From NCBI RefSeq assembly GCF_014251375.1, contig NZ_CP059187.1:372001-436000 (forward strand): a DNA stretch of 64,000 bases. Reading direction: 5' to 3'. This DNA is from Blattabacterium cuenoti. Lineage in GTDB: Bacteria; Bacteroidota; Bacteroidia; Flavobacteriales; Blattabacteriaceae. Position numbers and translations under genes: made by a program. Positions 6,986 through 52,859 of the stretch are shown piece after piece (within the stretch, counting starts at the first letter, position 1; every line of letters begins with the position of its first letter). The notes under the pieces are model-generated. The model worked only from the letters and a program-made list of their open reading frames with translations. It ran no database searches and had not been told where the DNA came from.

Positions 6986-7465
6986 TTAAATTCTCACAGA
7001 ATGAGGAACAAAAACAGTATAATCCCCCCTATTTTTGATGATATCTCTTACAACACAAGAACTAATATGAGACTTGTTATAAGAAGAAAAAATAAATACC
7101 GTTTCAATAGAAATAGAATTTGAATTTTCTAATTCTTTATTTGCATAAAACATATTCTTTTCAAATTCAAAATCCAATTGATTTCTAATCCCTCTCAACA
7201 AAAAATGAGCCTTTTTTTTTATACAAAAAGAAGTTATAAGCCCCTGAAATATATCTATTTCGATTCTATCTTTAGAAAAACTGAAAAAAGTTTTTTCTAT
7301 CCATTCTTTTCTTTTTCTAAAAGAAAACATGTTTTTCTTTTCATTATTTTTTCCAATGGCTATAATGATTTTATCAAACAAATTTAAAGATCTAATAATA
7401 ACATCATAATGTCCCAAAGTTATAGGATCAAATGAACCAGGAAAAACAGCAATCTTTTTCTCCAT
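6986..7465 (-). CDS. coaD: Phosphopantetheine adenylyltransferase
   Basis: 159 residues, the normal CoaD length. The nucleotidyltransferase motif F-P-G-S-F-D-P-I-T-L-G-H (His19) and the C-terminal I-S-S-C-V-V-R-D-I loop are present. It transfers AMP from ATP to 4'-phosphopantetheine, the penultimate step of coenzyme A synthesis. It converges on rnr (11-nt gap) and diverges from ricT. A short perfect inverted repeat lies in its leader at 7481-7496. Confidence 0.95.
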   Translation of the reverse strand: MEKKIAVFPGSFDPITLGHYDVIIRSLNLFDKIIIAIGKNNEKKNMFSFRKRKEWIEKTFFSFSKDRIEIDIFQGLITSFCIKKKAHFLLRGIRNQLDFEFEKNMFYANKELENSNSISIETVFIFSSYNKSHISSCVVRDIIKNRGDYTVFVPHSVRI

Positions 7466-12072: not shown

Positions 12073-13149
12073 TTAGTATACATCCTTTGAATAACGTTTA
12101 TTTTTTTTCATTTTTTTTAAAAATTCGAGAGAATTTTCTCCTAACTCTTCTTTTATTACACGAAGTAATGTATTTTCAACATCCACACTCATATTTTTTT
12201 TTTTTCCGCAAATGTAAATATATGCACCATTTTTTATCCATTTGTAAAACTCTTTACGGTTTTTCCATATTTCATCTTGTACATAAATTTTTTTTTTTTG
12301 ATCTCTAGAAAAAGAGATATTTATATGGTTTAATATTCCATTTTTTTTCCAATTTTTTATTTCCATTTGATATAGAAAATCAATTTCTGAATATTGATTT
12401 CCAAAAAAAAGCCAATTTTTTCCAGTAGATCTATTAATTTCTCTTTCATATAAAAAAGAACGAAAAGGAGCTATCCCCGTACCAGTTCCAATAAGTATTA
12501 TATCCTTATTGGATTTTGGTAATTTAAATAAATGATTTCTATGAATAAAAAAAGATAATAGATCTCCTTTTTTTAATTTAGAAAGAAAATTAGAACAATA
12601 TCCATATTTAATTTTTCCATCAATTTTAAATTGATGACGTAATACTGTAATATGTATTACAGTATTATTGTGTGCTTTAGGAGAAGATGAGATAGAATAC
12701 AATCTAGGTTTTATAGGATCCATAAGCTCAATAAAATCTTTTAATTGAACTTCCTTTTTTAAAGGAAATTTTTTTAAAAGATCAAAAAAACTCCATATTT
12801 TTTTATTAGAATAAATAGGATTTTGATCTGAAAAAAAAGAATACTTACTTAACATATTTCGGGATAAATGAACGATGTTAAATTTTTTTTTAAACATAAA
12901 AAACATCATATTTTTTTCATTTTTATCATTAAAAATTATTTTTTTCCAACTTTTCAAAAAATTCATAATTTTATGAACTTCTTCTGATGAGTTTTCCGCC
13001 ATTATTGCAACAGAGTCTCCTGGAGAGTAGTCACCAGATTCATTCATCAATATTTCAATGTGATAAAATTCTTTATGAGATTTATTATTTTTTTTGTTTA
13101 AAAGTAAATTATTCAAAACTATTCCACATAAATGTTTTTTTTCCCTCAT
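12073..13149 (-). CDS. cysJ: CysJ-like FAD/NADPH reductase without flavodoxin domain
   Basis: 358 residues matching the ferredoxin-NADP-reductase half of sulfite reductase flavoprotein CysJ. The connecting/FAD domain has Y-S-P-G-D-S-V-A-I (41-49) and R-L-Y-S (149-152). The NADPH site is G-T-G-T-G-I-A-P (221-228), with I-C-G-K-K-K-N-M later, and the C-terminus R-Y-S-K-D-V-Y closely resembles that of E. coli CysJ. The N-terminal FMN flavodoxin domain of about 200 residues is absent, and no open frame for it lies upstream. It is the last gene of cysE-cysK-cysJ and presumably feeds electrons to a sulfite reductase encoded elsewhere. A general ferredoxin/flavodoxin reductase role is possible. Confidence 0.78.
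   Translation of the reverse strand: MREKKHLCGIVLNNLLLNKKNNKSHKEFYHIEILMNESGDYSPGDSVAIMAENSSEEVHKIMNFLKSWKKIIFNDKNEKNMMFFMFKKKFNIVHLSRNMLSKYSFFSDQNPIYSNKKIWSFFDLLKKFPLKKEVQLKDFIELMDPIKPRLYSISSSPKAHNNTVIHITVLRHQFKIDGKIKYGYCSNFLSKLKKGDLLSFFIHRNHLFKLPKSNKDIILIGTGTGIAPFRSFLYEREINRSTGKNWLFFGNQYSEIDFLYQMEIKNWKKNGILNHINISFSRDQKKKIYVQDEIWKNRKEFYKWIKNGAYIYICGKKKNMSVDVENTLLRVIKEELGENSLEFLKKMKKNKRYSKDVY
12618..12667. repeat. Two adjacent inverted repeats inside the cysJ-like gene
   Basis: The first is CATCAATTT / AAATTGATG (12618-12626 and 12628-12636), 9 bp with a one-base centre. The second is TAATACTGTAAT / ATTACAGTATTA (12640-12651 and 12656-12667), 12 bp with a 4-nt loop. Both lie within codons of the FAD domain, only 3 nt apart. 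Confidence 0.6.
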
Positions 13150-16426: not shown

Positions 16427-17503
16427 TTTTTGGATCAACTTATTCATTATTTCTTTTTTTCTTAATTTTCCCAATGAATTCTCTATAAATTTTTTCACAA
16501 AAAAAATATGTTTGGGCATAAAAAATTTTTTTTTACCTAAAAAAATTGATTTTGGAATACGAAAAAAGAAAGGATCACTTTCTATAACTAATACAATTTT
16601 TTCACCTAATTTTTTATCTGGAATTGAAGAAACAAAAAACCTCTTTTTAAATGTTAGAAATAATGGAAAAAGATCTTTTTCTATCAATTCGGGGACAACT
16701 TTGATCCCACCACTATTAATAAGATTATCATATCTTCCAACCCAGTAAAATTTGTCTTTTGATATCAGATGAACAATATCATTTGTCTGAATAAATGAAT
16801 CCATACAATATGGAGAAAATACTTTTAAACAATTTCTTTTGTCTCTACTAAGAGAAATATCTTTGAATGATTGATAATAATTAGTTTTATTTAATCCATT
16901 AATTTTTTTTAAAGCTATATGCCCCAATGTTTCCGTCATTCCATAAGTTGCATAACAAAGAGTTGAAATATTTTGTAATTTTTTTTCCAAATCACTAGAA
17001 ATAGGGGCACCTCCTATTAAAAGAATTTTTATATTTTCCAATTTTTTTAAAGATGAATAAACTTGTATCGGAACCATTGATGAAATATCGAAAAAATATT
17101 CTTTGTTGATATTTTTTAATGGATTAGAAGACGGAGGAATACAATAAATATTCCACTCAAATAAAATAGCACGGACAAAAAACATTTTTGTTGCTATAGA
17201 ATCTATAGATAAACATAATAATCCTTTTAATCCCTTTTTTTTGAGATTAAAATAATCTACTGTCATTTTTGCACATCTTATCATATATTTTTTTTTAAGA
17301 AAAACTTTTTTAGGAATACCTGTAGTTCCGGAAGTAAATCCAATCAATCCAGGATTACTATCATACCAACTTTTCAAAAAAGAAAGAATTGATTTTTGCC
17401 AATAAAAGAAAGGATGTCCTGGGGAAAAGAGATTTTTAAAAATTTTTTTAGAAGAAAAATTTATCCATAAACCCAACCCTAAATGAGATTTTTTATCTTC
17501 CAT
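16418..17503 (-). CDS. menE: O-succinylbenzoate-CoA ligase
   Basis: 361 residues, compact as usual for flavobacterial MenE. The AMP-binding motif [11 protein letters not shown] is at 55-65, followed by [10 protein letters not shown] and the C-terminal [11 protein letters not shown] with the conserved adenylation lysine. It activates 2-succinylbenzoate with CoA in menaquinone synthesis. It is last in the menB-menA-hydrolase-menC-menE run, and its start overlaps menC by 25 nt. Confidence 0.92.
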
Positions 17504-18558
17504 TTTTTAATAATAAAAGGATTATACCAAATACTTCCTTTTTTGATTTGTAAAGGAGATAAAAAATTATTCATATAAAAAGATCCTGTCTCTAATCCAT
17601 GAGTTATCTGATCATTTACAAGATTAAAAGTCCATTGAGTAATAGCATTCATTCCTATATTGCTTTCTAAAGAAGAACTAATATACCACTCAATTTTTCT
17701 TTTTTTAGCTTCTAAAATCCATTTTTTAGAACCTAAAAAACCTCCACATATACTTGGTTTCAAAACAATATACTGAGGAGATATAAAATCTAATAATTTT
17801 TCTTTCAAAAATTTAGATTTAAATTGATTTATAGTTGTTAATTCTTCATCTAATGCAATAGGTAATTTTGAATTTTTGCATATATAAGCCATTTCATTCC
17901 AATTTCCAGGAGTTATAGGTTGTTCAACAAAATAAACAAAATTTAAATCAAATAACTTATTAATACAATCCAAAGCACTTTTTTTATCTTTAAAAGAACC
18001 ATTTGCATCTATACGGATTTTTATATTATTATATTTTTTTTTTATTTTTTTTAACAAAAAATACTGATAAGGAAAAAGTTTTGAACTTATTTTTATTTTA
18101 ATACATGAAAATCCTAGATATATTTTTTCCTCTACTTTTTTGAAAAATTCATTTTCAGAAGTATTTAACCAAATGAGACTACTTGTAGGAAGTCCATTTT
18201 TACCATCAGTAAAATCAGAATTATATAATATTGGAAATCCCTTATTAAAACTTAAAAAAGCTTGTTCTAATCCAAAAAAAATAGATGAATACGAAATGAA
18301 TCTGCGATAATACATGGGATCAATTTTTTTACTACGATTTATCTTTTTAGAAATAAATAGTAATTCTTTTTCATAATTATACAAATTTTTTAATGCAAAA
18401 TGATCCAATAATGGATTGCATTCTCCAATTCCTATTCTTTTATTTTTTTCTTTTAAAATTAGAAACCAAATAATATTATGTTCAAATATTCTATTAGAAT
18501 TCTTTATTTTTTCTTTAAAAAAGAATAATTTTTTTTTTATAATTGATTGAAAAAACAT
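17479..18558 (-). CDS. menC: o-Succinylbenzoate synthase
   Basis: An enolase-superfamily protein of 359 residues from the ATG at 18558. A longer frame would begin with TTG at 18582 inside the hydrolase gene, but the ATG sits one base after that gene's stop and is preferred. Catalytic features are the K-I-K pair in C-I-K-I-K-I-S, Asp in R-I-D-A-N-G-S-F, Glu in F-V-E-Q-P, Asp in A-L-D-E-E and Lys in V-L-K-P-S. It dehydrates SHCHC to 2-succinylbenzoate. The 3' end overlaps menE. Confidence 0.9.
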   Translation of the reverse strand: MFFQSIIKKKLFFFKEKIKNSNRIFEHNIIWFLILKEKNKRIGIGECNPLLDHFALKNLYNYEKELLFISKKINRSKKIDPMYYRRFISYSSIFFGLEQAFLSFNKGFPILYNSDFTDGKNGLPTSSLIWLNTSENEFFKKVEEKIYLGFSCIKIKISSKLFPYQYFLLKKIKKKYNNIKIRIDANGSFKDKKSALDCINKLFDLNFVYFVEQPITPGNWNEMAYICKNSKLPIALDEELTTINQFKSKFLKEKLLDFISPQYIVLKPSICGGFLGSKKWILEAKKRKIEWYISSSLESNIGMNAITQWTFNLVNDQITHGLETGSFYMNNFLSPLQIKKGSIWYNPFIIKKWKIKNLI

Positions 18559-18559
18559 A

Positions 18560-19261
18560 TTAAATACACATGGTGTCTCCAATTTTTAACAAAAAAAGTT
18601 CTTTATTTTTTTCATAAAACTTCTCTTTTGCCTTTTTTTTATCTATTTTAATCGCCTCAAAAGTATCATAATGTACCCCTAAAACTTTTTTACATTGTAA
18701 AAAATCAGAAGCAATTATAGCTTCCTCTACACCCATTGTATAAACTCCTCCTATAGGAAGAATAGAAATCTTCAATGTTCCAAAACTGGGGATAAGTTTC
18801 ATTTCATATGTAAGAGAAGTATCTCCTGATAAATAGATATTTTTTTTATCTTTGGTTTGTAAAAGGAATCCTCCCGGATTACCTCCATAAGTTCCATCGT
18901 CAAAAACGCTAGAATGAGTTGCCCAAACATATTTTAATCTTCCAAATGGAAAAGAAATAAAAGATCCATAATTAATACCATATGTTTTTAATTTTTTTTT
19001 TTCAAAAAAATTAGATATTTCATAATTTGAAATTACCAAAGATCCAAATTTATTAGCAAATAATTCTGTATCACAAACATGATCATAATGCGCATGTGTT
19101 AATAAAATGTAATCTATTCTTTTAAAATATTTTATACATCTATTCAATAATTTTGAATCTTTTTTGAATAGAGGATTTCCATAAAAAAAAGGATCTACTA
19201 ACAAAAAAATTCCATGTATTTCTATCATGTATGTACTATGACTAAAAAAAGTAATTTTCAT
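18560..19261 (-). CDS. Metallo-beta-lactamase fold hydrolase of the menaquinone cluster
   Basis: 233 residues. The metal motif L-T-H-A-H-Y-D-H is followed by Y-L-S-G-D-T-S and V-H-Y-D-T-F, as in the UPF0173-type metal-dependent hydrolases. As I recall, flavobacteria keep such a gene between menA and menC. MenH-like thioesterase or another hydrolase step in menaquinone synthesis is a fair guess from position, but the substrate is not shown by the sequence. It is packed between menA (19 nt) and menC (1 nt). Confidence 0.8.
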   Translation of the reverse strand: MKITFFSHSTYMIEIHGIFLLVDPFFYGNPLFKKDSKLLNRCIKYFKRIDYILLTHAHYDHVCDTELFANKFGSLVISNYEISNFFEKKKLKTYGINYGSFISFPFGRLKYVWATHSSVFDDGTYGGNPGGFLLQTKDKKNIYLSGDTSLTYEMKLIPSFGTLKISILPIGGVYTMGVEEAIIASDFLQCKKVLGVHYDTFEAIKIDKKKAKEKFYEKNKELFLLKIGDTMCI

Positions 19262-19280: not shown

Positions 19281-20212
19281 TCAAAATCTAACATTAAACA
19301 ATACTCCAATTCCTATTGAATAAAAAAAGGTTATTAAAATTAGTTTTTTTAGTTCTAAATTAAAATCTTTTGGACTTGATATAAAAATAATTTTTTTTAT
19401 GTGATTTATTAAAAAAGGAAAAATAAAAATTAAATAAAAAAATTGATATCCTCCATTATAGTTTAAATAAATAAAGTAGATTCCTAAAAAAAAAGAAATC
19501 AAAATAGAAAAAACATGGTATAATTTTGCATACTTAATTCCAAGTATTCCTGCTACTGTATATTTTCCATTTTTAGAATCATTTTCTATATCTCTCATAT
19601 TGTTAATATTCAAAACGGATACATTTAGAAATCCTATAGATAAAGATAAAAAAAAACATCCCTATGCCAAGTATGAGTGTATAAAAAATAACTTCCCATT
19701 ACAGAAACAACTCCAAAAAAAATAAGAACAAATAGATCTCCCATTCCTATATATCCATAAGGTTTTTTTCCCATAGAATAGTTTATAGAACTATATATAC
19801 AAATTAATATTCCTAAAAAGTAAAATAAAAGAATAAAAAAATTATTCACATTTACTTTAATTGATTGGAAAATCAATAAAATTCCAGAAAAAAATGATAA
19901 AATAGAAAAAACATTCACTGCTTTTCTCATTTCTAATAATGAAATAAAACCTTTCTGAATTGGATGCAATGGACCTATTCTTTTGCAATTATCTACTCCT
20001 TTAACAAAATCTCCATAATCATTTGAAAAATGAGATAGTACTTGTAAAAATAAAGCAGTCATTAAACACAAAAAATAAGTAACAAAACTTACTTGATATC
20101 CTTTATATTTTGAAATTAAAAAACTCAAAGTGATTCCAGAAAAAGATAAAAGTAAAGTATGAAGTCTGGCAGATACACACCAATACTTCAACTTTTTATT
20201 CATGATTTTCAT
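19281..20212 (-). pseudogene. menA: 1,4-dihydroxy-2-naphthoate polyprenyltransferase, frameshifted
   Basis: Two frames together make a MenA of about 310 residues. Codons from 20212 to 19634 give the N-terminal 192 residues, with S-H-F-S-N-D-Y-G-D-F-V-K-G-V-D, the first Asp-rich prenyl-diphosphate motif, and several membrane helices. The reading then hits a stop just after an A9 tract (19648-19656, T9 in the message). In the other frame the protein continues from that tract with L-S-L-S-I-G-F-L-N-V-S-V-L, then I-N-N-M-R-D-I-E-N-D, the second Asp motif, to 19281. One extra base in the tract restores the gene. Its ATG overlaps the menB stop (ATGA). Either a pseudogene, rescued by slippage, or a sequencing error. 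Confidence 0.88.
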
Positions 20213-52087: not shown

Positions 52088-52859
52088 TTGAAAAAATTCA
52101 TTTGGAAAATATCTACAATTTTTTTAAAAAAAATTGATTCTACCAATCAATATGCAAAAAAAAATATTTCAAAATATCCAGATTGGACTATTATCCTTAC
52201 AAAAAATCAAACAGATGGAAAAGGCGCAGGAAATAACATATGGTATTCAGAAAAAGGAAAAAATTTAACTTTTAGTATTATTTTAAAATCAATTAATTTA
52301 TCTGTAGAAAAAGGATATCTTATAAATTTATTCATTAGTAATGCAATCCATAAAACATTGATGACTTACAGTCAATCTATTTGGATAAAATGGCCCAACG
52401 ATATTATTTTAATGGATAAAAAAATAGCAGGAATTCTAATAGAAAATAGTCTTTTTTGTAAAAAAATATATACTAGTATTATAGGTATAGGAGTAAATGT
52501 AAATCAAATACAATTTGATAAAAAATTTAATCAAGCTTCCTCTCTAAAAAAATTATTTCATAAAAATTTTGATATAAAAAAACTTTTTAATGATATTGTT
52601 TATTCTATTCAAAAAGAATATTTACTGCTTTTTAATAAAAAAGGGCTTTTTTATGGGGAAAAAATAATACGAAAATATTATATAAACCATCTTTACATGA
52701 AAAACAAAATAGGAACTTTTTTCATAAAAAAAAAATACAATAATTCATGGAATTATTAGAAATATAACAAAAAACGGACATTTAATAATTGAACTAAAAA
52801 ATAATAAATTCTATTTTTTTTCTCAAAAAGAAATTGAATTTATTATTGATATTTTTTGA
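52088..52859 (+). pseudogene. birA: Biotin-protein ligase, frameshifted near the 3' end
   Basis: The open frame 52088-52759 gives 223 residues with I-D-S-T-N, Q-T-D-G-K-G-A-G-N-N-I-W, N-L-T-F-S and the catalytic-Lys segment K-W-P-N-D-I-I-L. No N-terminal DNA-binding domain is present, as usual in flavobacteria. After an A10 tract (52726-52735) the frame soon ends. In the +1 frame the protein continues with N-T-I-I-H-G-I-I-R-N-I-T-K-N-G-H-L-I-I-E-L to TGA at 52857, the expected C-terminal beta-barrel. Nine instead of ten A would join them. The catalytic core is intact, so the short form might keep activity. The start is TTG; no ATG is available. Confidence 0.88.

Follow-up and report, generated by a model that had tools for sequence, protein, structure and literature searches.

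The birA locus

The window, a stretch of 64,000 nucleotides from the Blattabacterium cuenoti genome designated G000 here, carries a birA gene that opens at a TTG codon, as in most relatives, and encodes a predicted product of 223 residues (ORF and translation). The frame is lost at a run of exactly 10 A and terminates 24 nt beyond it, and the +1 frame, which overlaps the end of the run, stays open for 41 further codons (NTIIHGIIRNITKNGHLIIELKNNKFYFFSQKEIEFIIDIF; peptide example, NITKNGHLIIELK). A sequence-only reading of this DNA had described a frameshift at this run; its coordinates, the A10 run, the distance to the end of the frame and the stop of the +1 frame were all borne out by the sequence and its translation. 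The features of the locus are listed in Table 1, together with the sites at which the birA frame breaks in other genomes of the genus.

Table 1. Features of birA in the window and positions of birA frame breaks among Blattabacterium genomes
Feature	Position	Strand	Content and evidence
birA zero-frame ORF	52088..52759	+	TTG start at 52088; catalytic domain, first strand of the C-terminal domain, out-of-frame tail to TAG (52757-52759); ORF, PF03099, TIGR00121, IKWPND and GIGVNVN motifs
A10 tract	52726..52735	+	Frame lost here, one base in surplus for the frame of the 41 codons that follow; sequence, alignment with 48 congeners, six reference genomes
41 codons of the C-terminal barrel	52734..52859	+	Other frame, with TGA (52857-52859); tblastn to relatives, pN/pS
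Tail YNNSWNY of the truncated product, with TAG	52736..52759	+	Out of frame; translation
Break in birA of G000 (window)	codon 213		A10
Break in birA of G030, G028, G005 and G036	codon 28		A10 where in-frame G042, G003 and G027 have A11
Break in birA of G034	near codon 54		A12
Second break in birA of G005	near codon 95		A12

In tblastn searches against 48 congeners, the 41 codons matched the C terminus of birA in nearly all of them, with ~45-76% identity (for example, E 2e-14 in G026), and the matches were in frame with the catalytic core in every congener with an intact birA. The estimate of about 40 extra codons belonging to the BirA C terminus thus proved accurate, and the homology led us to reject a chance ORF as an explanation for the +1 frame. 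Intact relatives whose genes have no homology to these codons had been proposed as the observation that would speak against the sequence-only reading; homology was found to be present. Separate expression of the C-terminal piece was also considered and rejected, as that frame contains no ATG, GTG or TTG codon between 52734 and 52856.

The two nearest relatives are in frame at the tract, with GTA-A8-CAATTATTCATGG in G037 (the A8 being counted after GT) and GTGAAAAACACAATCAATCATGG in G026. Relative to six reference genomes, the window gene is displaced by 1 mod 3, that is, it is one base too long, and one base fewer fits the register of G037 and G026, in agreement with the earlier proposal that nine A would restore the gene. 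The frameshift was unique to G000 in the alignment with the 48 congeners; it lies on a terminal branch and may be recent. The window gene fits the poly(A) pattern of endosymbionts, namely a single indel in a homopolymer of at least about 9 nt in a gene that is open elsewhere. Inheritance by several lineages was not found for the window tract, and was found for other tracts in birA, menC and coaD. Such shared inheritance is supporting evidence in the published cases of slippage and no strict requirement.

Domain organization of the truncated product

The catalytic domain of the window protein is complete (PF03099, E 2e-19; TIGR00121, 127.3 bits for a cut-off of 83.1), with the IKWPND and GIGVNVN motifs present, and the core is intact as the sequence-only reading had stated. 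The protein of an intact relative, strain ALLACbim, was folded as a stand-in for window BirA. The prediction (mean pLDDT 86) has as its best match the biotin protein ligase (BPL) of Pyrococcus horikoshii (2deq_A; TM 0.79/0.84), and it places the strands of the C-terminal barrel at residues 206-211, 216-225, 231-235, 238-242 and 247-249. The intact ALLACbim enzyme is thus predicted to fold like the BPLs of P. horikoshii and Aquifex aeolicus, which have no DNA-binding domain; in window BirA, unlike in these enzymes, the frameshift detaches the C-terminal barrel. Its first strand alone shares the frame of the catalytic domain, and the 41 codons for the rest are out of frame. According to the model, the truncated protein would keep that strand and lose about four of the five, so that the removal of the C-terminal domain claimed earlier should read as the removal of most of it.

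The completeness of the catalytic domain and of its key motifs raises the possibility that the 223-residue protein works unaided and that the barrel is dispensable in the symbiont, which was among the options put forward by the sequence-only reading. We regard this as very unlikely, given that conservation of the C-terminal codons extends to essentially all congeners, that they have a counterpart in the free-living Bacteroidota enzymes compared and that they are still constrained in the window lineage (see below). The predicted truncation would moreover leave a single unpaired strand of a five-stranded barrel. In E. coli BirA, the C-terminal domain is required for activity.

Recurrence of birA frameshifts in the genus

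The birA frame is broken in 6 of 49 Blattabacterium genomes, in all cases at poly-A runs of 10-12 nt, and four different tracts are involved (Table 1). The five genomes other than that of the window had escaped the sequence-only reading. Three of them, G030, G005 and G028, form a clade that has a support of 1.00 in a tree of 21 concatenated proteins (10,027 columns) and of 0.95 in a birA tree of all 49 genomes. The simplest reading is that the A10 at codon 28 was already in their common ancestor; it is also possible that this run changed repeatedly in the three lineages, because such runs mutate fast. In G005 (L079, about 428 kb and 432 kb), the two birA frameshifts each fall one base short, and clpX is frameshifted at an A12 run as well.

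Programmed frameshifting at a site conserved in the genus was rejected, since the birA breaks are spread over four tracts that differ across the genus and the closest relatives keep the frame at the window tract. For a phase-variable contingency locus, in which tract length switches a gene on and off reversibly, a single-copy ligase is an atypical target.

Frameshifts at homopolymers in other genes

To place these breaks among those of other genes, the equivalents of the 64-kb window were scanned in 21 genomes, with at least three reference genomes per call. The scan yielded 17 frameshifts at runs of 9-12 nt, in birA (7), cysJ (3), coaD (3), menC (2), clpX (1) and menA (1); birA is over-represented in this set because the sample of 21 genomes deliberately included each of the five further genomes in which birA is broken. 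Targeted searches added coaD in G024 and menC in G017 and G039. Overall, coaD is frameshifted in 4 of 49 genomes (G007, G013, G024 and G027), at the same poly-A run, and absent from none; menC is similarly frameshifted at a poly-A run in 4 of 49 (G012, G016, G017 and G039) and absent from none. The coaD shift is common to the sister pair G024 and G027, and that of menC to the sister pair G016 and G017.

Length calls at homopolymers of 9-12 nt are error-prone, and the tract might have been misassembled or be polymorphic among genome copies, with A9 as the true or major form. In a survey of about 264 kb of G000, comprising the window and ~200 kb of further stretches, three frameshifts were found (birA, A10; menA, T9; murF, A11), all of them at such runs and none elsewhere, as this explanation would have it. 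On the other hand, the shifts are not distributed randomly over tracts. Among runs of at least 10 A, 7 of 23 were out of frame in birA (49 genomes) versus 7 of ~360 in other genes (21 genomes), an excess (p=3e-6; p=0.0015 with shared shifts counted once) that is to be taken as indicative because the two samples were drawn differently, and that argues against scattered errors as the whole story. Several shifts are furthermore inherited by clades (birA in G030, G005 and G028, menC in G016 and G017, coaD in G024 and G027), so that the phenomenon as such is real. For the window's own tract, we consider an incorrect or variable length to be unlikely but a serious possibility. The asymmetry between A and T on the coding strand was considered as a test for sequencing errors and is uninformative, because coding runs of at least 10 A exceed those of T by ~10:1.

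The direction of the shifts is strongly biased. In 21 of the 23 tract frameshifts scored the run is one base short; it is one base long only in window birA and in rnpA of G037. A run that is short by one can be compensated by a +1 insertion in transcription or by ribosomes slipping by -1; when it is one base long, restoration of the frame takes -1 or +2. The bias is compatible with the survival of rescuable frameshifts, with a mutational bias toward deletions or with under-calling of runs. It offers a testable signature: if survival is limited to frameshifts that the polymerase can reverse, the window allele would be expected to be a young one, inefficiently rescued or miscalled. In Buchnera transcripts, insertions at homopolymer runs outnumber deletions by 151 to 16 (PMC5574713).

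Constraint on frameshifted genes and requirement for a biotin ligase

With the tract excluded, pN/pS of birA in G030, G005 and G028 was 0.25-0.37, compared with 0.28-0.39 in intact pairs. In a neutral simulation with the observed number of substitutions, which used a simple substitution model and took the shift to be as old as the clade, in none of 2000 trials did the gene escape stop codons in all three lineages, and the nonsynonymous fraction observed in the clade (0.52-0.61) was below the neutral 1% quantile (0.70-0.77; range by transition bias). To judge by these patterns, the frameshifted birA copies of this clade are not decaying. In the window lineage, comparisons with the two nearest relatives gave values of 0.28-0.375 after the tract and 0.29-0.335 before it, from few sites. 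Purifying selection on both sides of the tract thus holds for the clade with the codon-28 A10, and the window lineage, in which the shift may be recent, is consistent with it. For coaD, pN/pS was 0.39-0.66 in the affected lineages and 0.20-0.26 elsewhere, although a comparison that included an intact neighbour gave 0.53; constraint on this gene appears, from these values, to be relaxed in the frameshifted lineages.

The demand for the enzyme was examined in the genome itself. The biotin/lipoate ligase domain PF03099 has a single match in the single-contig genome of 639,840 bases, and no second biotin ligase that would make birA dispensable was found among PF03099 matches genome-wide. AccB, the substrate of BirA, is intact (ORF L092, 1477-1965), with the biotin site EAMKL, and is adjoined by an intact AccC; loss of the substrate was thereby ruled out. 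According to a published reconstruction, biotin synthesis is absent from both host and symbiont (PMC9603385), and therefore import and attachment of biotin are required. Finally, birA was found in 49 of 49 Blattabacterium genomes (~0.51-0.64 Mb), including the smallest, of 511 kb.

These data bear on a recent loss of function or strong weakening of the window gene, with birA beginning to decay or the host covering biotinylation. The frameshift is unique to its lineage and has the less repairable direction, as might be expected in this case, and the lineages with a frameshifted coaD are somewhat relaxed, like the comparison with the intact neighbour. Nevertheless, birA has been lost in none of the 49 genomes, AccB and AccC are intact, the gene has neither a second lesion nor relaxation past the tract, and the clade with an older birA frameshift did not decay. 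The early decay envisaged by the sequence-only reading is unlikely, given that every genome of the genus has birA, that its frame has been broken repeatedly and that the constraint on it is unchanged, and we likewise judge a recent loss or weakening to be rather improbable.

Proposed rescue by slippage

Rescue by slippage at the tract is the likeliest account of the window gene, and among the three options of the sequence-only reading it is the one that we favour. That reading had missed that the tract is long by one base, a direction that is harder to repair and that sets it apart from nearly all such tracts of the genus. One A would have been added to the poly-A run, probably by replication slippage, and the gene would still be used. 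RNA polymerase, as the most likely agent, might then slip at the A10 and restore the frame by the loss of one A or the gain of two. The resulting fraction of in-frame messages, whatever its level, would give rise to some full-length biotin ligase, and a small yield should suffice because the ligase is needed in catalytic amounts only. We give this reading about an even chance of being correct. As its tract is one base long, the window allele is unusual and its rescue is less certain than for the relatives.

Tolerance of poly-A frameshifts through slippage is established in Buchnera and Blochmannia (PMC3017870), and in the genes studied by Tamas et al., 12-50% of the transcripts are corrected at such runs according to a review (PMC5009743). 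The published cases (Tamas et al., 2008; Wernegreen et al., 2010), as described in these two papers, resemble the present one in several respects, in that they concern AT-rich obligate insect symbionts, a single indel in a run of A9-A12 within a gene that is open and under constraint elsewhere, shifts that several relatives have inherited, and cell-wall and other retained genes, murF being hit here too. In contrast with these cases, Blattabacterium belongs to the Bacteroidota and not to the Gammaproteobacteria, birA is hit repeatedly at four tracts, the window tract is long rather than short, and the frameshifts come from genome sequences. A point against slippage rescue in general is that the study of Buchnera transcripts at homopolymer runs found no transcript with a restored frame (PMC5574713).

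Among the Bacteroidota, the authors of the genome of Walczuchella, a flavobacterial insect symbiont, remarked in passing that genes frameshifted at homopolymers may stay functional (PMC3971599), whereas the Blattabacterium case has been tested here with trees and measures of constraint across 49 genomes. No report of such frameshifts in Blattabacterium was found in the open-licence literature searched. Blattabacterium birA would be a new case of an already known phenomenon, to which the window tract itself may belong. If transcripts confirm it, slippage-tolerated frameshifts would reach beyond the gammaproteobacterial symbionts of ants and aphids to Blattabacterium, the cockroach symbiont in the Bacteroidota, and would affect a gene that is retained throughout its genus. 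The case is also a warning against labelling genes split at A or T runs in these genomes as pseudogenes.

A more far-reaching proposal is that universally retained enzymes (birA, coaD, menC) stay out of frame at poly-A runs as a stable condition, nearly always one base short, and that +1 slippage by RNA polymerase (or -1 slippage by ribosomes) thereby limits the enzyme to a low level. Window birA would then be the rare opposite allele, and the 21:2 ratio would be a signature of selection rather than of mutation alone. We consider this proposal distinctly doubtful. Families of cofactor enzymes (birA, coaD, menA and menC) seem to be hit more often, which might hint at low demand; this was not relied on, the numbers being too small.

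Further interrupted genes

The orthologues of two of the recurrently affected genes lie in the window on the minus strand, coaD at 6986-7465 and menC at 17479-18582. A menA-like gene for a prenyltransferase of the UbiA family (19305-20212, minus strand) ends early, after 192 residues, near 19649-19688, at a T9 of the coding strand; its remainder, of ~115 codons in another frame, matches nine reference genomes, and the tract is one base short. Outside the window, murF of G000 is one base short at an A11 run (L173, about 12521-12554), as judged from a single reference genome. G037 has tract frameshifts in truA and rnpA, each called against a single reference; that of rnpA (L177, 16023-16359, minus strand) is an apparent A10 frameshift, one base long like that of window birA.

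The window also encodes a cysJ-like sulfite reductase flavoprotein (12073-13149, minus strand) of 358 residues, compared with about 570-580 in relatives. Its N-terminal domain seems to have been lost, since Pfam finds no flavodoxin domain in the protein. Poly-A frameshifts of cysJ were observed in G026, G028 and G032.
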